From a virus, in IMG/VR virus record IMGVR_UViG_3300045455_000034, positions 1 to 34,412 of that record: a DNA stretch of 34,412 nt. One strand, given 5' to 3'. The notes beneath the pieces are model-generated. The model saw only the letters and a program-made list of their open reading frames with translations. It had not been told where the DNA came from and ran no database searches. Position 1 is the first letter of the stretch. Each line of letters opens with the position of its first letter. A program made the position numbers and the translations under genes. Shown piece by piece: positions 6,463-28,362 of the stretch.

Positions 6463-6839
6463 CAGGGCTTCCTCGCCGGCTCTTTGGCAATGAAACGTGC
6501 CGAAAGTTCTTTCCAGTACGGTTTGCCATCTTTAATTCGATATAGCGCATCTTTCACACTGGAGATGTAGCCGGTAAAACGATAAACAGCATTCGTGCCC
6601 GGCACTTCGATAGTATGAAAAGCTGTCGGCTCAGTAAGTTTATTATAAAGATTAAAATATAACGATTGATCGAAAATTTCACCAAAGGTGATGCTATAGT
6701 TGTAATAAACGCCAATGATTTCACGCCTCAGACTGCCGTCCTCAGTGCGTTCCGCGTATTTGTCCAACACATCCGCCTGACGTTGCACATCCACATACGG
6801 CACTTGATAGATCACGCCATCGATCTTGATATAGTTCAC
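6462..6839 (-). CDS. distal-tail-like minor tail protein
   Basis: 125 residues, with the pattern of a conserved phage protein that links tape measure and hub: YIKIDGVIYQVPYVDVQR near the start, YYNYSITFGE in the middle, and YRFTGYISSVKDALYR followed by FIAKEPARKP at the end. GTG start overlapping the tape-measure stop (GTGA), so probably translationally coupled. It likely forms a ring at the distal tail. This is a family-level inference only. Confidence 0.6.
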   Translation of the reverse strand: MNYIKIDGVIYQVPYVDVQRQADVLDKYAERTEDGSLRREIIGVYYNYSITFGEIFDQSLYFNLYNKLTEPTAFHTIEVPGTNAVYRFTGYISSVKDALYRIKDGKPYWKELSARFIAKEPARKP

Positions 6840-11579: not shown

Positions 11580-11932
11580 GCGCATCCTATCTGCCAATGC
11601 TGCAAATGTCGCCCGCCATAGTCCATGCGGTCCACGCTGCGAATGCTAACTACATCTGGGTATTTCTTCTTCAACGCGGTAATGGTAAATGCTGCGCTGA
11701 TTTCATCGGTCACTAACCCCTTTACCAGGATATCACCAGATTTGAACGAAAATACACCGCGCGTAAAGGGAATATAAATTGCAACGCTGTCTGCTTCGAG
11801 TAATCCTGACCGCTGCACATTGACCGCTTTCCGGTCTTCCCAGAATACATCCCGGATTTGAGTTCGTGTCCACGCTTCAACGCCATTAATCACACTCTTG
11901 TTATAAAGCGTGCAATCACTGTTTGTTTTCAC
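11576..11932 (-). CDS. DUF6751-like head-tail joining protein
   Basis: 118 residues: MKTNSDCTLYNKSV at the start, VFWEDRKAVNVQRSGL, ADSVAIYIPFTRGVFS, GDILVKGLVTDEIS, then VDRMDYGGRHLQHWQIGC. The pattern closely matches a conserved small protein (which I associate with DUF6751) located between connector and minor capsid genes. Probably a head completion protein. GTG start overlapping the previous stop (GTGA). Confidence 0.7.
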   Translation of the reverse strand: MKTNSDCTLYNKSVINGVEAWTRTQIRDVFWEDRKAVNVQRSGLLEADSVAIYIPFTRGVFSFKSGDILVKGLVTDEISAAFTITALKKKYPDVVSIRSVDRMDYGGRHLQHWQIGCA

Positions 11933-14067: not shown

Positions 14068-14166
14068 CGTCCTGAGGTGGGAAGGCACCCCCCACGCCCT
14101 TGAAAGAGGAGAGATGCTGACGTAGTGCCAGTGGACGGGACAAAAGACCGGAAACGGTCTTTTTTT
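14068..14166 (+). ncRNA. candidate structured noncoding RNA, about 99 nt
   Basis: Bounded by the promoter above and an intrinsic terminator: AAAGACCG (14143-14150), GAAA tetraloop, CGGTCTTT, then seven T. Between them three helices can form: CGTCC/GGACG (14068-14072 with 14133-14137), GGCAC/GTGCC (14084-14088 with 14125-14129) and GTGGG/CCCAC (14077-14081 with 14091-14095). The last two interlock as a pseudoknot. No protein is encoded; the only start near a GAGGAG box gives three codons. It matches no ncRNA family that I recognise. It is convergent with the head gene, whose stop overlaps its terminator. Confidence 0.55.
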
Positions 14167-16342
14167 ATTTGATCTTGAGATATTTAGATTTAAGTGTTCC
14201 ATCGGCATAAAATAAATCTTTCCAGTTTGCTTCGTGAATCGTAGTAATTTGATGAAAACCACTTGGTGTTTTGCTCAAGCTAACCGCCACAATCATGAAC
14301 CGGTCTTCTATTTTCCCACCAGGATATAACTCGGAAACAAGCGTGATTGAATTATAACCATCTCGTCTTTGACGAATCGTCTTCTCAATAAAATTGGGCG
14401 ATTGTATCGCTTTTACAAGTCCTTCTTGATTCTTTTCGAGCCATTCCAATCGATATCTATGTTTCGGATCGGAAAGATGACTCGCGGAAAACTTATTATA
14501 AATAACCGGTTTTGGTGTAATAAATTTCTTCCCCGGTTCCATTTCTGAAAAATACTTAGAAACATCTCCCAAATCTGTAACCTGTTGATATTCCCCTGAC
14601 CGAAAATCAATCTTCGGAGCTTTTATTGACACATTTGGATGATAGCCAATTCTTTCCCGTTCATACTGCCTTCCCAACCTCGTTTGTTTCGTGAAATCCC
14701 GCATTCTGGCTTGCCACTCTCGCACCTTGCCCCACTCATACTCAGTATCAAGCTGCGCCGCCTTCAATGCCCCTTCTTGCCGTTTCCAGTAACGAATCTT
14801 TCGCTCAATTTCTCGTTGTTGCTGCGTTGCCTCATAAACGCTAATTTCCTGACCATTATAGGTAACGGTTTTGTTCACATAACTTTCAAGCTCAGCTTTT
14901 GAGTAAGCATTCTCAGAAATACCCTCGAAAAATGGATAGAAACTATGACGGCAATTATGGATTACAATGTCATTAGCAAAGTACCAGCCACCTTCTGTTT
15001 CGAGGTTATAAACATGGACAAAAGAACCTTGCGTAGATTTCCGCTCGATGAAAATGATGTTATCCAACTCTACAATTCCGGGGTATCCACTACAACTATC
15101 AAGGAGAAATACGGGTGTTCCCTGAAAGCGGGAATTGAAGCAATCCCGCAAAAAGCCATCTGGAAATATAACATCGACCTCGCCATTGGAAACGTCGCCG
15201 TGGAAGTAACCGGCAGAGGAAGGAAACCGGACTATATTCCCATTTACAGAGAGAGAATCAAATATATCTTGAATTCTGGTTTCTCCCTGGTCTATATTTG
15301 GGCTTCCACCGCTTATCCGGTCAAAGTAGGAGCGGCAGATTACATTATCTCCTTTTGTCAGCAGACCAGCCGCGATCCATCCCTTGTTGGTCAATATAGG
15401 GTGATTGGGTGTACAGGAAAGCTCCTTGCCTCCGGCAGTGTGCAGGATAATGATTTCACCGGAATATTCACGGCGATACCCGGCACATATAGCCGGACCT
15501 GACACAACCGTTTCGCCAACGACACAGTTCCAACCCATCAACCCTTCACCGCTGCCATAACCCGTTTTCTCGATAAAACTCGGATATTCAGCATGAGTGC
15601 CTGACCTGGAATAGACTTTTCCCTGCCACCCCTCGTGATTGGCCGGCCCCGTTCCAGTATTACGAGCGCCGATGTGAGCAGATACAGCAACCAGATCGAT
15701 CCCCATTTCATCAGCACGCGCTTCCTGGAGCTTTCCAACTGTTTGATTGACTCCGGTCAATACAGTTCGCCGCATGGCAACATCCAAATGGTCTTGACGA
15801 CCACTAAAATGGATCACCGGTAATCCTTTGTCAGCCACATCCTTAACTGCCTGACGAATTGCCGTATTGTAATCAAAAGCCCCACTGGTTATTTGCATAT
15901 ACGCCAGGTCAGCAGCATCAATAAAAGCATTTTGTCCGCTAATTGCCGTAGTCATGGTCAAGTTTTTCATAATGCCCTGGGTTTTATTCAATCCAGCAGC
16001 CAAAACTTGTTTCATCGCCGGGGATAAATTGAGAGGAATAGGCTGAAGGCCGGCAGCCTTATAAATTCCATCGTCAAATGTCATCGCTTTTACACCGGCT
16101 TTTTCAAACATGGCTTGTAATTCCCCACTTGTTTTGCCAGTCAAAATCGTCAGCTCAGATAAAATGTTTTCGTATAACTTGCCGCTCTCCGATAGCCGTT
16201 GCATCTGCCAGGCCGCCGTAGAACTGGCAAAATCCAACTTTCCCAACCGCCGCGCAATATCTATAATGACCGAATCAGCATACTCAGTATAAAGGGTAAT
16301 CAGGCGTTGCGGCAGCGCATCGAGCTGGTCGGAGGTGAGCAT
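14165..16342 (-). CDS. phage head morphogenesis protein (Mu gpF-like) interrupted by an intein
   Basis: 725 residues: a 534-residue minor head protein with a 191-residue intein. The N-extein (1-272) is the helical Mu-F-like region with the FSGRQDHLDVAMRRTVLTGV block and HIGARNTGTGPANHEGWQGK. The intein sits inside the family's conserved GWN/CRH motif; after splicing GWN-CRHSFYPF is restored. The C-extein ends in about 120 residues (ITPKPVIYNKFSASHLSD, IRQRRDGYNSITLVSELY, FHQITTIHEANWKDLF) resembling PBECR-type RNase domains found on phage head proteins; that part is tentative. It follows the portal with a TAATG overlap. Two exact palindromes lie within (14738, 16280). Confidence 0.85.
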   Translation of the reverse strand: MLTSDQLDALPQRLITLYTEYADSVIIDIARRLGKLDFASSTAAWQMQRLSESGKLYENILSELTILTGKTSGELQAMFEKAGVKAMTFDDGIYKAAGLQPIPLNLSPAMKQVLAAGLNKTQGIMKNLTMTTAISGQNAFIDAADLAYMQITSGAFDYNTAIRQAVKDVADKGLPVIHFSGRQDHLDVAMRRTVLTGVNQTVGKLQEARADEMGIDLVAVSAHIGARNTGTGPANHEGWQGKVYSRSGTHAEYPSFIEKTGYGSGEGLMGWNCVVGETVVSGPAICAGYRREYSGEIIILHTAGGKELSCTPNHPILTNKGWIAAGLLTKGDNVICRSYFDRISGGSPNIDQGETRIQDIFDSLSVNGNIVRFPSSAGYFHGDVSNGEVDVIFPDGFLRDCFNSRFQGTPVFLLDSCSGYPGIVELDNIIFIERKSTQGSFVHVYNLETEGGWYFANDIVIHNCRHSFYPFFEGISENAYSKAELESYVNKTVTYNGQEISVYEATQQQREIERKIRYWKRQEGALKAAQLDTEYEWGKVREWQARMRDFTKQTRLGRQYERERIGYHPNVSIKAPKIDFRSGEYQQVTDLGDVSKYFSEMEPGKKFITPKPVIYNKFSASHLSDPKHRYRLEWLEKNQEGLVKAIQSPNFIEKTIRQRRDGYNSITLVSELYPGGKIEDRFMIVAVSLSKTPSGFHQITTIHEANWKDLFYADGTLKSKYLKIK
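14954..15526 (-). mobile_element. mini-intein (191 residues) in the head protein gene
   Basis: Encoded residues 273-463 of the precursor. All splicing blocks are visible: block A begins CVVGETVVSG with Cys1; block B has SCTPNHPILTNKGWIAAGLL with the TxxH; block F is VHVYNLETEGGWYFAND; block G is VIHN followed by Cys+1, with the penultimate His and terminal Asn. Splicing should therefore work. No LAGLIDADG or HNH domain is present in the sense frame. The central part (AGYFHGDVSNGEVDVIF) belongs, from memory, to a conserved segment of phage head-gene inteins with no known splicing role. The opposite strand of this same DNA carries a nuclease-like ORF. Confidence 0.92.
15014..15502 (+). CDS. antisense-nested Vsr-like homing endonuclease candidate inside the intein
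   Basis: 162-residue ORF on the strand opposite the intein and wholly within its DNA. ATG preceded by GAGG with eight bases spacing. Residues 12-36 (DENDVIQLYNSGVSTTTIKE onward) look like a helix-turn-helix. Residues 50-96 look like a Vsr/DUF559 PD-(D/E)xK core: WKYNIDLAIGNVAVEVTG with candidate acidic residues D55 and E64, then RERIKYILNSGFSLVYIW. The tail (AADYIISF, GQYRVIGCTGKLLASG) also reads as real protein. Its codons are in exact register with the sense codons, a phase in which chance ORFs are favoured, so homology is the key test. If real, it supplies the homing activity the intein lacks. Confidence 0.65.
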   Translation: MDKRTLRRFPLDENDVIQLYNSGVSTTTIKEKYGCSLKAGIEAIPQKAIWKYNIDLAIGNVAVEVTGRGRKPDYIPIYRERIKYILNSGFSLVYIWASTAYPVKVGAADYIISFCQQTSRDPSLVGQYRVIGCTGKLLASGSVQDNDFTGIFTAIPGTYSRT

Positions 16343-17750: not shown

Positions 17751-19535
17751 TTATGATCCTCTTCGTCGCCAGATAAGATTTGTGGCGTACCTGGTTGCAT
17801 CAATGAAGTGGTTATCCCGATCTGGATATTCACTGATGAAATTGCCATCCGGATCCTGCTCCAGCTCATAGTTGATAAACTCTTCAGCAGCATACGGACA
17901 ACGCTCATGATCAATCACAATCGCAGCCAAAGATTGCAGCCACTTCATGGAATATTTAACACTCTCAGGACCTTTCTCAGCGCCGCGGCAGGTTAGGCCA
18001 TACTCACGATAATCAGCTACACTCTTTGGTTCAGCCGAATCCGAAATGATCAAGTCCGATGGTAATACATGCTTATCGCTGATCAACATATCGGCTGTTT
18101 GACGATTAGACGCCTTAAGCGCACGCAGCTCATCATAGATATACAGCGTCAACCTGGCTGCATCATAATGGCATTTCACCCATGCATACGGATCCGGATA
18201 ATAACCCCAGTCGTTACCCATTAGAACATGGTCAAACTGAGAGATTTCATCATCAGTAATTTTGCGGAATTGGACATTTTCGAAGACCAAACCACCAGTA
18301 CCATTAGCAATTCCCAGGTATTCGTGCTCGTAGGCTTTAGGATTGATCACCTTCAAATGATCAGCTTCTTCCAAGAAGACTTTACCCAACCATTCAGGAG
18401 GAACTTCCAAATAGCAGCTCTGATGCTGATACTGAGTATTCTTGGGGATTTTTACGTACTTATTTGCCCAATTCGCTGCTGTCCGTGGCGGGTTGAATGA
18501 TTTGAAAATATAGGCCAGGTCTCCGCCACGAATTACGCTTTGCTCGATCTTGCGAATTGCCTCTTCACCATGAAATTGATCGAGTTCTTCGAACCATAGG
18601 ATTCCGATATAGCCAAATGCCGGCTTTATTGATTTAATCTTCCCTGGATCATCCGCGCCTCGAAAATAGATTTTCTGGCCAGTAGGCAAGTATGTTATTT
18701 CCAACGGCGAAAGCGTGCACTTGAACTCATTATCTAACCCCAATTCGCTGATAGACCATAGAAATTGGGAATAAACACTGTCTTTGAGCGTATTGGCCAC
18801 TTGACGAGCTGCCAGCGCATGCATCTCTGGATTATTTTTCAACAAATAGAGAATAACCAGTGAGACAAATGTTGATTTTGTCGAACCTCGCCCGCCATAA
18901 AATAGATACTCAGTATGTTGATGGTCTCGGATATCCCGATACGCGTTGAGAAATTGCGGAGAAATCAAATCAGCGGGAAGAGAAAACGAAGCTGCGCCAG
19001 CAGCCAGCCGTTCTTCATCGGTGAAAATCCGCATGTGTTTTCCGAGCATCATCATCGCTGTTTGTGGATCGTGCAATCCCAAACTGACAGAATTCGTTTT
19101 TCCTGTCGATGTGGCAACTCGCTTGACCAGGTGCCCGCGCTCTTTCAACGCCCGTTCGTTGATATAAACCATACGCCCACCTTTTTCGGTCTCCACAAAG
19201 TCACTGATACTAGCTCGTCCCATTTGTGAAAGCCTGGCAAGCAATTCTGCCTCCCCCATTATCTGTTCACGCCACTTCTTATCAGCCTGATCGATGACCC
19301 ATTTATCCCAGGCTTCAGCGCGAGGCCACCAATCATCTTCGTCGGCCATTCGCCGCCAGGACCCAGGAGCATTCTTGCCTGGTATTTTTCCCTGCTGCGC
19401 CCGCACCAGTTTGTATGCACCATTCAATGTCCGTCCAGGTCCCATCAACCGGAAAATATTGAACCACGAATGCCTGACGTATGCCTCCCCATCTCGCCGA
19501 TCCCAAGGTTGACGCTCATCAATATCGCGTGACAT
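17751..19535 (-). CDS. terminase with fused small- and large-subunit regions
   Basis: 594 residues from the ATG at 19535 (a TTG nine bases up is in frame; neither has a clear SD). Residues 1-185 resemble a small subunit: GPGRTLNGAYKLV, WWPRAEAWDKWV, and the typical closing segment LHDPQTAMMMLGKHMRIF. From about residue 190 it is a PBSX-type large subunit: Walker A GGRGSTKS (about 214-221), Walker B ILWFEELDQF, coupling motif FNPPRTAANWANKY, and nuclease aspartates in GNDWGYYPDPYAW, ISDSAEPKS and DNHFIDATRYA. One chain could thus recognise, pump and cut DNA. Two exact palindromes are inside, one encoding HTEY next to Walker A. Confidence 0.88.
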   Translation of the reverse strand: MSRDIDERQPWDRRDGEAYVRHSWFNIFRLMGPGRTLNGAYKLVRAQQGKIPGKNAPGSWRRMADEDDWWPRAEAWDKWVIDQADKKWREQIMGEAELLARLSQMGRASISDFVETEKGGRMVYINERALKERGHLVKRVATSTGKTNSVSLGLHDPQTAMMMLGKHMRIFTDEERLAAGAASFSLPADLISPQFLNAYRDIRDHQHTEYLFYGGRGSTKSTFVSLVILYLLKNNPEMHALAARQVANTLKDSVYSQFLWSISELGLDNEFKCTLSPLEITYLPTGQKIYFRGADDPGKIKSIKPAFGYIGILWFEELDQFHGEEAIRKIEQSVIRGGDLAYIFKSFNPPRTAANWANKYVKIPKNTQYQHQSCYLEVPPEWLGKVFLEEADHLKVINPKAYEHEYLGIANGTGGLVFENVQFRKITDDEISQFDHVLMGNDWGYYPDPYAWVKCHYDAARLTLYIYDELRALKASNRQTADMLISDKHVLPSDLIISDSAEPKSVADYREYGLTCRGAEKGPESVKYSMKWLQSLAAIVIDHERCPYAAEEFINYELEQDPDGNFISEYPDRDNHFIDATRYATNLIWRRRGS

Positions 19536-19547
19536 GGCAATCAATCA

Positions 19548-20522: not shown

Positions 20523-20886
20523 CATTTTCCTCCCAATCGCCTGGCTCCCAACATGGTTTCGCGTTCATCTCACCAATTTGCCGGATCAAAATTCCAATCC
20601 CATTCATCAAATCAAGCACACGATGCGCATACCGGGACAACTGCCGCTGCAATCGCTTAATTTCGCGGTCCTGCCTGGTTACATGCTGTTCAAGTTCCGC
20701 TAAACGCGTTTTCAGTGGTTCTAGTAACGATACGGCAGCATCAGCGATCGCATCTGCAGCATCCGCTTTATTTTTTACCCGAGTGGACAGGTATACAAGC
20801 AACCCACCAAAAATTGCGCCGACCGCCCCAATGATCATTTCGATGATTTTTTCTGACATAGATTTACCCGTAGGAGCGTATATCAT
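20509..20886 (-). CDS. small membrane-anchored coiled-coil protein of the lysis cassette
   Basis: 125 residues from the ATG at 20886 (GGAGG nine bases upstream). One transmembrane segment near the N-terminus (MIIGAVGAIFGGLLVYLS), then KNKADAADAIADAAVSL and a long coiled coil (RLAELEQHVTRQDREIKRLQ), ending in an acidic tail. Located between the holin-like gene and endolysin, so a holin accessory or spanin-like role is plausible. Overlaps both neighbours. Confidence 0.6.
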   Translation of the reverse strand: MIYAPTGKSMSEKIIEMIIGAVGAIFGGLLVYLSTRVKNKADAADAIADAAVSLLEPLKTRLAELEQHVTRQDREIKRLQRQLSRYAHRVLDLMNGIGILIRQIGEMNAKPCWEPGDWEENDDTG

Positions 20887-21226
20887 GTTCATTCACCTCC
20901 CGCTGCCTGGCCGGGAAATATGTGCCGATCAATTGGTGTATGTAACTTGCTCCCATACCAATCGATACTCCGGTAACAATCACTCCAAACGCGGTAGGTT
21001 TGACCGGTGTTTCAACCACCTGGCCGGCCAGATAGATCACATCAAATTGATAGACCCATGCGCCAGCAACTCCGGCTGCTACAGCCAAATAGACCAGCGC
21101 CCATTTATACGGCTGCAATACCGGCACATGATCAACAATCCGGCCAAACAGCGCCTCTACCAGCGTTTCAACCAGAAAGGCCAGCAGCAAAATAACGCCC
21201 AAAGTGCCCATAACTTCTCCAAACAT
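20864..21226 (-). CDS. putative holin
   Basis: 120 residues with three hydrophobic segments: GVILLLAFLVETLVEALF, WALVYLAVAAGVAGAWVY and FGVIVTGVSIGMGASYI. Size, topology and position upstream of endolysin support a holin. No specific family is recognised. ATG with GAGAGGAG upstream, immediately after the T-rich tail of the terminator at 21245-21295. Confidence 0.6.
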   Translation of the reverse strand: MFGEVMGTLGVILLLAFLVETLVEALFGRIVDHVPVLQPYKWALVYLAVAAGVAGAWVYQFDVIYLAGQVVETPVKPTAFGVIVTGVSIGMGASYIHQLIGTYFPARQREVNEHDIRSYG

Positions 21227-21244: not shown

Positions 21245-21295
21245 GAAAATAAGAATGCCCGGCACATGCCTGAACGTCTCAAGCGTGTGCCGGGC
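21245..21295 (-). terminator. hairpin terminator upstream of the lysis genes and downstream of the CRISPR-like repeat
   Basis: Ten-base perfect stem (GCCCGGCACA at 21257-21266 with TGTGCCGGGC at 21286-21295) followed on the - strand by ATTCTTATTTTCTTTT. It would end transcripts from the zinc-ribbon gene that carry the repeat. The preceding box at 21290-21307 is nearly the same (16 of 18 bases) as the one beside the terminator at 13873-13933. Confidence 0.75.
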
Positions 21296-21330
21296 GGTCA
21301 ACTTCGGCTCTGTCACATTGTGACGACCGT

Positions 21331-21359
21331 AGAATCACCCCCACGTGTGTGGGGAAAAC
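21331..21359 (-). CRISPR. solitary type I-E-like CRISPR repeat (candidate racRNA / decoy)
   Basis: A single 29-base unit on the - strand: GTTTT, a 6-bp stem CCCCAC/GTGGGG with loop ACAC, then the 8-base tail GTGATTCT. This is the layout of type I-E repeats (Cas6e hairpin plus 8-nt handle) and closely resembles those of E. coli and Streptococcus thermophilus CRISPR4, from memory. No second repeat or spacer array is nearby. It begins on the base after the TAA of the zinc-ribbon gene and is followed by a 36-base structured linker (CGGTC/GACCG enclosing GTCAC/GTGAC) and a terminator, as expected for an RNA anti-CRISPR. Confidence 0.75.
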
Positions 21360-21602
21360 TTATTCAGTTGCACCTATTCTAGCACACCTTATTCGATAAA
21401 TCAATTCATGCAAACGATAATCGCGGCTGTCGAAGTGGAACAGCTTGCGACATACCCCACAAACACCATGCACATAAGCAACATCGCTAACACCAAGTCG
21501 CAGCCATACCCGCTGACGAACACGGATCAATTGGCCTATTTCTGAGCCACACTCACTACATCTCAAACTGGAATCCAATGCTAGCAAATTCTCATCACTC
21601 AA
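21360..21602 (-). CDS. small zinc-ribbon-like protein
   Basis: 80 residues with two Cys pairs, CSEC (near residue 15) and CGVC (near residue 48), separated by a basic strand region (IGQLIRVRQRVWLRLGV). This suggests a zinc ribbon. It starts with TTG, supported by GGAGG five bases upstream. Its stop directly abuts the CRISPR-like repeat, which would be its 3' untranslated region. Function unknown. Confidence 0.6.
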   Translation of the reverse strand: MSDENLLALDSSLRCSECGSEIGQLIRVRQRVWLRLGVSDVAYVHGVCGVCRKLFHFDSRDYRLHELIYRIRCARIGATE

Positions 21603-25674: not shown

Positions 25675-26418
25675 TTACCTTTGCATGACGATGGTTGTTG
25701 TGTACTTTTTCATCGAATTTACGTAGCATTCACGCGAGCAGTATGACTGGTACTGACGTTTTCGCGGCAGCCGAACGCCGCATCTACGGCAGACACTAGT
25801 CAGTACTGCGTAGCCCAACTCGCGATTGATCCGATCGACATCCGCCATGCCGCTGCGTTCGCGCTTATGCTCTGCGATTCGCTGCCGGTTGGCTTGGCGG
25901 CAGGAACGCCTATACTCCGCGAGCCGCTGCCGGTTGGCTTGGCGGCAGGAACGCCTATACTCCGCGAGCCGCTGCCGGTTGGCTTGGCGGCAGGAACGCC
26001 TATACTCCGCGAGCCGCTGCCGGTTGGCTTGGCGGTAGGAACGCCTATACTCCGCGATTCGCTGCCGGTTGGCCTGGTAGTAGGAGCGCTTATGCTCCGC
26101 GATTCGCTGCCGGTTGGCTTGGCGGTAGGAACGCATATACTCCGCGATTCGCTGCCGGTTGGCTTGGTAGTAGGAACGCATATACTCCGCGAGCCGCTGC
26201 CGGTTGGCTTGGTAGTAGGAACGCATATACTCCGCGAGCCGCTGCCGGTTGGCTTGGTAGTAGGAACGCATATACTCCGCGAGCCGCTGCCGGTTGGCTT
26301 GGCGGCAGGAACGCCTATACTCCGCGAGCCGCCGTTTGTTACACTCTGCGCATCGTTTCGGTCGAGGTCCATATTTGCTCGATTGGTCAAACTCTACGCC
26401 GCAATCAATACAGATCAC
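25675..26418 (-). CDS. zinc-ribbon protein with about ten 15-residue helical repeats
   Basis: 247 residues from the GTG at 26418 (GGAGAGG five bases upstream; overlaps the previous stop as GTGA). Architecture: an N-terminal Cys4 ribbon (CIDCGVEF, RCAECNKRR), then about ten copies of RQRLAEYRRSCRQAN with L/I, Y/H, R/M, C/Y and R/Y variation, and a C-terminal Cys cluster (SVCRRCGVRLPRKRQ, YCSRECYVNS). The repeats are Arg-rich and helical and may form an extended single helix that could bind nucleic acid. Near-identical DNA across units suggests recent expansion. No enzymatic function is assigned. Confidence 0.7.
   Translation of the reverse strand: MICIDCGVEFDQSSKYGPRPKRCAECNKRRLAEYRRSCRQANRQRLAEYMRSYYQANRQRLAEYMRSYYQANRQRLAEYMRSYYQANRQRIAEYMRSYRQANRQRIAEHKRSYYQANRQRIAEYRRSYRQANRQRLAEYRRSCRQANRQRLAEYRRSCRQANRQRLAEYRRSCRQANRQRIAEHKRERSGMADVDRINRELGYAVLTSVCRRCGVRLPRKRQYQSYCSRECYVNSMKKYTTTIVMQR
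25868..26338. repeat. 45-bp tandem repeat array, about ten copies
   Basis: The unit contains CGCTGCCGGTTGGCTTGG and ACTCCGCGAG elements and repeats every 45 bases, keeping frame. Most differences are single bases at a few positions, including synonymous sites, so the array looks recently homogenised. Copy number may vary between isolates and may be collapsed in short-read assemblies. Because the period is a multiple of three, long open frames appear on both strands here; these are side effects. Confidence 0.92.
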
Positions 26419-27236
26419 ACCCACCTCTCCACCAATTTATTAGCGCCAGCCGGCCAGCTAGTGACGAGAGTTTGGTCGCCACGAACAATATCATTCCACG
26501 CCAGTATTTTTTCAACTGTAAAGCGTCCCATTTTTTCTTGACCGTTTGCCATGATGTAGCCACAACGTAGTGGAGATCGATAACCATATCTGGTTACAGG
26601 CTGATCCTCGATCTGCTGTTTTCCCAAACTTGCAGCCATAGCCAATCCCGCATCATATTTTCTTCGCATTTGCGGATCGCTCAGTGTTTGATAGGCATAA
26701 TTGATTTGTTGAAATTGTTGCGTCGCATCGATTTCATGGCATACATCTGGATGCCATTGTCTGGCAAGCCTGCGAAAGGCGCTCTTTAACTCATCAGCGC
26801 TGGCTTGATGACTAATCCCTAAAACGGCATATAAGGTTATTTCTTGGGTTGGTGTGGGTGGACCGGCTTCGAACCAGTCTCGTAAAACTGTTTCGGGGAA
26901 GATAACAGACCACTGTCCATCAACCATCCCATATGCCGAGCGCGTGCCATCACCTCGATCTTTTGTGCTGCCCACGTAACGCACTTCAAGCAGCCTGATT
27001 TCAGATTTGCTAATCGCAGCGTTGATTTGAGGGAGATGTACCGATTCCCCTAAATATTTCTGGCACCAGTTCACTAAGTAGTGTCCGTGCTTGGGGTCGA
27101 TCAACCAGGCTTTGCGGTTTGCATCCCACCGGCGATCAGTATTTGGCAATGATTTAATGAGAGCTACCAATGTCGAATTGTATGGGCTATAAAAAACGTA
27201 TACTCCTTGATCAATGCTAATTTGAACACTACTCAT
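26415..27236 (-). CDS. HARP-like domain fused to a J-domain (DnaJ-type) protein
   Basis: 273 residues. Residues 1-65 (FYSPYNSTLVALIKSLPNT, RRWDANRKAWLIDPKH) resemble the HARP/HepA-associated module found on SNF2-type helicases. Residues about 133-200 form a J-domain: LYAVLGISHQASADELKSAF, ARQWHPDV with the HPD signature, and AYQTLSDPQMRRKYDAG. A further about 70-residue tail follows. It could recruit host DnaK to a phage replication or recombination complex, as lambda P and host DnaJ do; that role is inference. ATG with AAGGA eight bases upstream. Confidence 0.75.
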   Translation of the reverse strand: MSSVQISIDQGVYVFYSPYNSTLVALIKSLPNTDRRWDANRKAWLIDPKHGHYLVNWCQKYLGESVHLPQINAAISKSEIRLLEVRYVGSTKDRGDGTRSAYGMVDGQWSVIFPETVLRDWFEAGPPTPTQEITLYAVLGISHQASADELKSAFRRLARQWHPDVCHEIDATQQFQQINYAYQTLSDPQMRRKYDAGLAMAASLGKQQIEDQPVTRYGYRSPLRCGYIMANGQEKMGRFTVEKILAWNDIVRGDQTLVTSWPAGANKLVERWV

Positions 27237-27269: not shown

Positions 27270-27596
27270 TTACACGAGCTTCTTTAACATTTCTATGCAA
27301 GTTTCCAGGTTATTTTTAAGAAAGGTCAAATGAAGTTCAATTTGCTCTAGCCGGTCTTTGCGATTAATAGAGCACACATAAGCATTACCTTCCCATTCAA
27401 AAAAAGGTAAATGAACTGCGTTGTCAGCTCGCTCACCAAGCGCCGCAATTGCATGATCTAAATACAATGGCATTGACACATTTAAAGCCAGATGTCCTAG
27501 TTCGACTTGCACATCCGCAATTTTGCGCACAAATTTAACTTCGAGCTCATGATCGATAGACTCTGTGTTTTCTACTTCAATAGTGTTTTTAACCAT
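27270..27596 (-). CDS. hypothetical early protein
   Basis: 108 residues from the ATG at 27596, preceded by GAGGAAAAT; the frame is open further upstream but would overlap the exonuclease gene by 110 bases. Contains VQVELGHLALNVSMPLYLDH and a helical C-terminus (RLEQIELHLTFLKNNLETCI). I do not recognise a family. The location suggests a recombination or replication accessory role. Confidence 0.55.
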   Translation of the reverse strand: MVKNTIEVENTESIDHELEVKFVRKIADVQVELGHLALNVSMPLYLDHAIAALGERADNAVHLPFFEWEGNAYVCSINRKDRLEQIELHLTFLKNNLETCIEMLKKLV

Positions 27597-28362
27597 ATTT
27601 TCCTCTGCAGCGCGCCCAATATCCGCAGTAATTAGAACTGCATGCCCAACTGGTCGGATTCTCAGGATAGATGCCTGATTCGATTGCTTTCCAGACATTT
27701 CGAACCATCTGAAATAACCACATAAGTTGGCCAGGATTATGGATATGCTCGATCACTTGAAATTGTGGTGTTTTGGTCTTGACAATAACAAAATGAATAA
27801 AACGCCACTCTGGATTCTTGACGATCCCCAACTGGTTGAGCATAGCCAGGTAAAACAGCGGCTGTATTTCTGTGAGCGCCTTATCCGCAGACCAACTTGA
27901 TTTGCTTGTTTTGATATCCCCAGGTATACCGTGTTCGGTAACTAAATCGATAAAGCCTGTGATCGGAATCGGAACGCCAGGCACTTTCAATGCTACTTCA
28001 CGCTCGATCAGCGGCCCATTTGCATCACGCATCACCCGAACACTGAGTATCCCTTTTTGCACTTCTGAATTTGATAGTATACGAATACCTTCATTGCAAT
28101 AGTGTTCCGGAGTGTTTGTCCCCCAGTCGATATTCTTGTCTTTTTCAAGCTGCTCGGTCCATTTTTGATTCCACAGGCCGATCAGGCTGTCCTGGTGGTT
28201 ATTGGCAATGAATGTTTCGACTGTCCCATGCACAGCGCTGCCCATGACTAATTCCGGAGATGTGGGCGTCTTGATCTTATCGATGTATTTCATTTTCCAG
28301 GACGCGCTGCACTGAAGAAATAAACTAATACTTGAATATGAAAGGTGATCAAGCTCAAGCAT
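27589..28362 (-). CDS. Cas4/RecB-like PD-(D/E)xK exonuclease with Fe-S cysteines
   Basis: 257 residues. Nuclease motifs: GSAVHGTVETF (motif I His), ITGFIDLVTEHG (Asp), GDIKTSKSSW (D...xK) and the QxxxYLAML helix. Four cysteines placed like a 4Fe-4S cluster: one near residue 18 (LQCSASW) and three at the end (WACSSNYCGYWARC). This fits the Cas4/AddB-like family found in many phages, where it processes DNA ends for recombination. It overlaps the recombinase upstream by eight bases. One 10/11 palindrome lies inside (28040). Confidence 0.82.
   Translation of the reverse strand: MLELDHLSYSSISLFLQCSASWKMKYIDKIKTPTSPELVMGSAVHGTVETFIANNHQDSLIGLWNQKWTEQLEKDKNIDWGTNTPEHYCNEGIRILSNSEVQKGILSVRVMRDANGPLIEREVALKVPGVPIPITGFIDLVTEHGIPGDIKTSKSSWSADKALTEIQPLFYLAMLNQLGIVKNPEWRFIHFVIVKTKTPQFQVIEHIHNPGQLMWLFQMVRNVWKAIESGIYPENPTSWACSSNYCGYWARCRGKYG

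Follow-up and report, generated by a model that had tools for sequence, protein, structure and literature searches.

Why does a phage carry a solitary type I-E CRISPR repeat directly after a small gene? The question is raised by a virus record of 34,412 bases, the whole of which was analysed and is called the window here; an integrase lies at its left end and its late genes are on the minus strand. The original prediction took the unit for a candidate RNA anti-CRISPR.

The repeat unit and its surroundings

The features on which the analysis turns are all on the minus strand.

21360 to 21602, minus strand: 80-aa zinc-ribbon ORF (CxxC...CxxC), upstream of the leader
21376 to 21404, minus strand: promoter-like TTGATT-17-TAGAAT, its -10 preceded by TG, within the 3′-terminal part of the zinc-ribbon ORF
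21360 to 21369, minus strand: the 10 nt, AACTGAATAA, with which the leader RNA is predicted to begin, judging by the position of the -10
21331 to 21359, minus strand: solitary type I-E CRISPR repeat unit of 29 nt, reading GTTTTCCCCACACACGTGGGGGTGATTCT
21354-21349 and 21344-21339, minus strand: the two arms of the unit's stem; its handle, GTGATTCT, is at 21338-21331
21296 to 21330, minus strand: leader hairpin and linker (ACGG..CCGAAGTTGACC), within which GCCGAAGTTGACCGCCCGGC is kept exactly in the relative L002
21245 to 21295, minus strand: intrinsic terminator, a 39-nt hairpin (17 pairs in the module script) with a T-rich tail
20864 to 21226, minus strand: holin-like ORF, the first gene after the terminator
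17751 to 19544, minus strand: terminase large subunit (TerL) of the late block

The unit has the layout first claimed for it: GTTTT, a 6-bp stem (CCCCAC/GTGGGG), a 4-base loop (ACAC) and an 8-nt handle. It begins right after the TAA of the zinc-ribbon ORF and is intergenic, lying between that stop (21360) and the next minus-strand ORF start (21226), where only unsupported plus-strand ORFs overlap it. On its 3′ side come a 35-nt hairpin-forming linker (21330-21296) and then a strong hairpin with a T-rich tail (21295-21245), again as predicted. The 131-nt stretch that holds the unit folds at -58.2 kcal/mol (z -5.9), a value equalled in 0 of 200 shuffles; a search of Rfam gave 0 matches. At up to three mismatches the unit occurs once in the window, with no second repeat or array nearby, and no I-E cas gene was found among the 22 window proteins scanned with Pfam or the 20 scanned with PADLOC, which agrees with the earlier view that array and cas genes are lacking.

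Two other genes in the window touch on this subject. A Cas4-like exonuclease (27589-28362; PADLOC Cas4, E 3.7e-07) adjoins a Sak4-like protein and probably serves phage recombination, not CRISPR. The unit was also considered as a means of integration into a CRISPR array, a reading that is disfavoured because the tyrosine integrase (90-1100) adjoins a tRNA-like 3′ end at about 85-125, a by-eye reading at a place where ARAGORN found no tRNA.

The original prediction had missed both a sigma70-like promoter site that ends 16 nt before the unit and the recurrence of leader and terminator in related phages. The promoter match alone is not significant (3 in the stretch against 6.0 expected in shuffles), nor is the fold of the window's leader hairpin alone (z -1.47, p 0.096), and the terminator was detected by the module script while being absent from the list of a simple scan. 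Taken together, promoter, hairpin and strong terminator resemble a leader of the lambda pR′-tR′ kind before lysis and terminase genes, and this arrangement before late genes is the layout of a lambda-type terminated late leader. The original prediction pictured the unit as released from an mRNA's 3′ end; an origin from a separate promoter a short way upstream is likelier, and would place the unit close to the 5′ end of such a leader.

After the holin-like ORF, which is called so by position only (phrog_20258, unknown function), the minus strand carries a second small ORF, an endolysin-like ORF (called from position and an SH3 domain below cut-off), the terminase and the portal gene. Upstream of the leader, small CxxC...CxxC proteins are found in the window and in six of the seven relatives whose leader was read by hand (all except L049), and their alignment has five invariant columns. 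They belong to no confident family, one member weakly resembling a phage translational regulator family (phrog_6417, E 0.0054), and a search for further relatives by sequence pattern in viral contigs gave 19 matches, none of them confirmed. Our guess is that the zinc-ribbon protein might be an antiterminator that binds the leader.

Repeats of the same kind in the probable host class

Judged by sequence, the unit belongs to the type I-E repeats. Among bacterial relatives of TerL the best one found, L087 (70% over a part of the protein), comes from a Chloroflexi MAG, G001, and the probable host is a Chloroflexota bacterium. At up to three mismatches the unit's first 25 bases occur in 49 of 396 genomes of the MAG's class, mostly in multiple copies that form arrays with a period of 61-62 nt; the reversed 25-mer pattern, used as a control, occurs in 0 of the 396. 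The viral contig L200 has a three-repeat type I-E mini-array (GTTTTCCCCACACACGTGGGGGTGAACCG) that is identical to the unit over the first 25 of 25 nt, including the stem, and differs from it solely at positions 26, 27 and 29. Arrays in four class genomes (G132, G150, G194 and G201) are one mismatch away over the same 25 nt and have the identical stem. All four genomes encode Cas6e (PF08798), in G150 and G194 on the contig of the array; in the MAG with the TerL relative neither repeat nor Cas6e was found.

These matches bear on whether the unit is a hairpin that resembles a repeat by chance. The unit is isolated, and the exact 29-mer and the 27-mer core are absent from the collections scanned (0 in the viral contig collection and 0 in the genome contig collection, respectively), which would fit a chance resemblance; against this stand the 0 of 100 dinucleotide shuffles that match the unit, the difference between forward and reversed 25-mer counts, and the full 25-nt identity to a real mini-array. 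A chance origin is hardly credible.

The handle departs from this agreement. Positions 26, 27 and 29, three of the last four bases, are the shared differences of the unit from the repeats compared; host repeats in the 26 loci read mostly end in GTGAACCG, and the ending TTCT is in none of the repeat forms read there. The full 29-mer at up to three mismatches was met in one variant repeat of G132 alone (the one genome to match in each of two overlapping samples, 396 genomes of the class and 400 of the phylum). The comparison with candidate hosts that had been proposed is thus borne out for the 25-mer arrays and not for the whole unit, no exact or 1-2-mismatch full-length copy having been found in the host genomes scanned; a looser pattern with the handle GTGATTC gave 0 matches in the viral contig collection. 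The best full-length identity is 26/29 (89.7%), to the L200 repeat and to the one G132 variant, and 25/29 to consensus arrays; the SRUFinder rule asks that a known CRISPR repeat be matched at 90% or more in both identity and coverage, the repeats compared here being those of L200 and of the class-genome arrays. The 275 array spacers gave only short, chance-like matches to the window and the viral loci, the best in the window being 15 nt.

The changed handle is what would be expected if the unit were a non-functional or decaying repeat, the remnant of a former mini-array or of an RNA anti-CRISPR, with the leader alone under selection for late antitermination. Random decay should be spread across the unit, however, and here the first 25 nt are unchanged from the L200 repeat, the stem is perfect, and the differences take up 3 of the last 4 positions and 0 of the 25 before them (Fisher p 0.001, with a boundary picked after seeing the data).

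Mini-arrays occur in phages (L200, which shares the unit's repeat over 25 nt; also described in the available text of PMC11656645), and the unit with the ~32 nt downstream looks like a repeat and spacer. On that reading Cas6e would turn the 32 nt that follow the unit into a guide, and Cascade would be led to a phage or host site, for CreA-like regulation or for inter-phage targeting. The window, in contrast to a mini-array, has one repeat and no second that closes a spacer. Moreover, the downstream stretch is phage leader with its 3′ part conserved in the nearest relative (L002), its best other match in the window is 12 nt, its first 7 nt occur at no other window site, and the handle is non-canonical. 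We regard such a one-repeat crRNA as very unlikely.

Two viral contigs gave observations of their own. The L200 mini-array is on the reverse strand at about 6530-6673 of a phage-like contig. In L207 (IMGVR_UViG_3300045918_000356), near 11715, a single I-E-like repeat, AATTCCCCACACACGTGGGGGTGAACCGC, is followed about 30 nt on by a different repeat-like unit ending GTGGATTGAAAC and then by a hairpin like that of a terminator; a single RNA may here carry two solitary repeats that differ in subtype.

The leader in related phages

The nearest relative, L002 (TerL 78%), shares with the window the -10, which coding conservation could also explain, similar bases after it, an unchanged GCCGAAGTTGACCGCCCGGC and a terminator at the same place. 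Similar predicted RNA starts, AGTTGAATA, are present in L002 and L007. Sigma70-like promoter, short leader, terminator and small gene follow in that order in L007, L012, L013, L017, L019 and L049, and no clear promoter-leader-terminator was found at the site in L004, L005, L020, L041 and L045, five of 11 loci read there. A script detected promoter-leader-terminator modules within 5 kb before TerL in 19 sequences out of 48, a set made up of the window plus 47 of the 80 TerL-relative loci whose members are non-independent (the rows of L015/L016 and of L059/L060 being identical); the modules of L019 and L049 were seen by eye and missed by the script. Modules are enriched upstream of TerL, with 20 in 234,183 nt against 22 in 1,405,617 nt elsewhere, counted there on both strands (binomial 2.6e-7).

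From the -10 to the terminator the window measures 80 nt, or 51 once the unit is subtracted; L002 measures 54 and the remaining 11 sequences tabulated 35-61, among which the 60 of L007 is too long, the script having taken a -10 eight bases upstream of a better TATAAT. The L002 leader has no recognisable repeat, and among the 80 TerL-relative loci, many of which stop short of the site, the unit was found at up to eight mismatches only in the window and its own copy, L001. Retention in relatives, which had been suggested as a check, is therefore seen for the leader, kept in L002, and not for the unit. The absence of the unit from L002, with that of a full-length host repeat at two or fewer mismatches, goes part of the way towards the outcome that the original prediction had named as refuting it.

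How the unit came to be there depends on the alignment. In the best structural alignment L002 reads AATAA followed by ACGG, hairpin and CCGAAGTTGACC, and the window reads the same with the 29-nt unit between AATAA and ACGG; the hairpins are 26 nt in L002 and 25 nt in the window with a similar 3′ bulge, and that of L007 is alike. This alignment makes the unit a 29-nt insertion into the leader, the reading that we favour. A gap-based sequence alignment pairs GGTTTCCCCGTGGTGGG of L002 with the unit, by which L002 could hold a decayed copy of it. That pairing, and the keeping of the leader in L002 without a recognisable repeat, belong on the side of a decaying unit, which with the pattern of differences described above we consider fairly unlikely.

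With the unit set aside, leader folds reach p <=0.05 in 4 of 11 stretches (L007, L019, L031 and L049); since most leader folds alone are not significant, the shared hairpin is read from layout and not from energy or covariation. The leader 17-mer gave five matches in viral contigs, one of them (L086) L002's own contig and the others (L082-L085) matching over 13-14 nt only. A promoter-leader pattern gave six stretches, of which L213-L217 have no visible leader or terminator and the sixth is L086. L031 and L049 have a common leader, with adjacent hairpins CTCTGAGGACTGGT..AACCAGCCCGG before the terminator, that is like put RNA in layout only.

The same order of promoter, short leader, intrinsic terminator, and lysis and head genes is found in the lambda pR′-tR′ 6S leader with Q antitermination and in the HK022 put RNA; the window has no known put sequence, and the likeness is one of layout alone. 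According to the accessible parts of PMC6606751 and PMC9378689, which treat HK022 put RNA and lambda Q antitermination, Q acts at a late-promoter site and put RNA on its own transcribing polymerase. The unit sits between the inferred start and the leader hairpin, and cutting of the late leader by host Cas6e could be a regulatory switch, in which removal of the 5′ end in I-E-positive hosts alters antitermination or mRNA stability. The relatives manage without the unit, and we hold a switch of this kind to be highly improbable.

A putative RNA anti-CRISPR on a terminated late leader

The reading that we prefer, and consider probable, is that this solitary I-E repeat acts as an RNA anti-CRISPR (Racr) near the 5′ end of a promoter-driven, intrinsically terminated late leader. 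What the sequence shows is the repeat itself, with its identity to I-E arrays in the class that probably includes the host, the promoter-like site, the hairpin, the terminator and the recurrence of the layout in relatives. RNA polymerase would start about 10 nt upstream of the unit and mostly stop at the terminator, and the RNA would be some 120 nt long. The unit's stem would be bound and cut by the host's Cas6e, which would remain on it, and Cas6e, perhaps with Cas7, would be diverted from crRNAs; the non-canonical handle, GUGAUUCU, would hinder a working Cascade from forming on the piece downstream. Should the promoter be constitutive, like lambda pR′, the phage would produce the decoy as soon as it enters, and the lysogen would produce it too, ahead of the antitermination that turns on the late genes.

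Solitary repeats of phages (SRUs) are known to inhibit CRISPR-Cas, and those of viruses adjoin promoter-like sites, as far as the available text of Camara-Wilpert et al. 2023 (PMC10651486) goes, from which the following points are also taken. In the case of a type I-F Racr, Cas6f does the binding and cutting and Cas7f is collected in a dead-end complex; for RacrIF1 the stem is essential, the handle is dispensable, and the product that acts consists of the 70-76 nt lying upstream of the cut by Cas6. Two I-E Racrs, RacrIE1 and RacrIE2, are active in Pseudomonas aeruginosa. Because the RacrIF1 stem is essential and its handle dispensable, an intact stem with the canonical handle lost fits what a Racr needs, and the divergence of the handle does not refute an anti-CRISPR reading. 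Length is the weak point, only about 31 nt lying between the predicted start and the Cas6 cut as against 70-76 nt in the RacrIF1 product; with so short an upstream RNA, the decoy would need either to titrate Cas6e or to draw on read-through RNA from the zinc-ribbon gene.

The window unit is like RacrIE1, RacrIE2 and other SRUs in being one intergenic repeat with no array, an adjacent promoter-like site, the subtype of the likely host class and an intact Cas6-type stem. It differs from RacrIE1 and RacrIE2 in lying inside a terminated late leader that is common to repeat-less relatives, in the short RNA upstream of its stem and in a handle that is off host repeats at three positions, and its Racr role is putative. 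RacrIC1 is 11 nt downstream of acrIC5 and co-transcribed with it (PMC10651486, in the text available), a likeness to the window in that the repeat lies just past the end of a small phage gene; the window's upstream gene, in contrast, is a zinc ribbon present also in repeat-less relatives and no known acr.

The central idea of the original prediction, a candidate RNA anti-CRISPR, has become our best reading, given the matching I-E arrays and Cas6e in the probable host class and an intact Cas6e-type stem. Its suggestion that placement at an mRNA 3′ end was possibly new is not supported; both the kind of element and its position just after a stop codon are already published, in the text of PMC10651486 that was available, with RacrIC1. 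Placement in a terminated late leader may be new: the words 'late', 'leader' and 'terminator' have 0 occurrences in the main text of that paper, as far as it was available, and the literature searched, supplements aside, gave us no account of a late leader that holds a solitary repeat. A stronger version, in which the unit is a new Racr deployment, an exact 29-nt module set between the start and hairpin of a constitutive, pre-terminated late leader to give an immediate decoy from an existing promoter, with Cas6e action that may feed into late antitermination, seems to us unlikely. If the preferred reading of a Racr on a late leader is true, RNA anti-CRISPRs would extend to phages of a largely uncultured phylum. 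It would suggest an origin for such decoys, one host repeat placed in a ready-made terminated leader, and the intact stem with altered handle would be a natural test of which parts of an I-E repeat a decoy needs.

Further observations concern other genes of the window. Numerous near-identical units of the QANRQRLAEYRRS type make up the protein of 25675-26424, whose ends carry CxxC motifs. An intein lies within the minor capsid gene (14165-16342, minus strand) and scores 25.6 bits with Pfam Intein_splicing, below cut-off, and above cut-off with TIGR01445. Almost exactly antisense to the intein, in the stretch 14945-15514, is a 185-aa plus-strand ORF that by tblastn matches 41 phage records, among them several with the annotation minor head protein; this ORF may be a real antisense gene or an echo of similarity on the sense strand.
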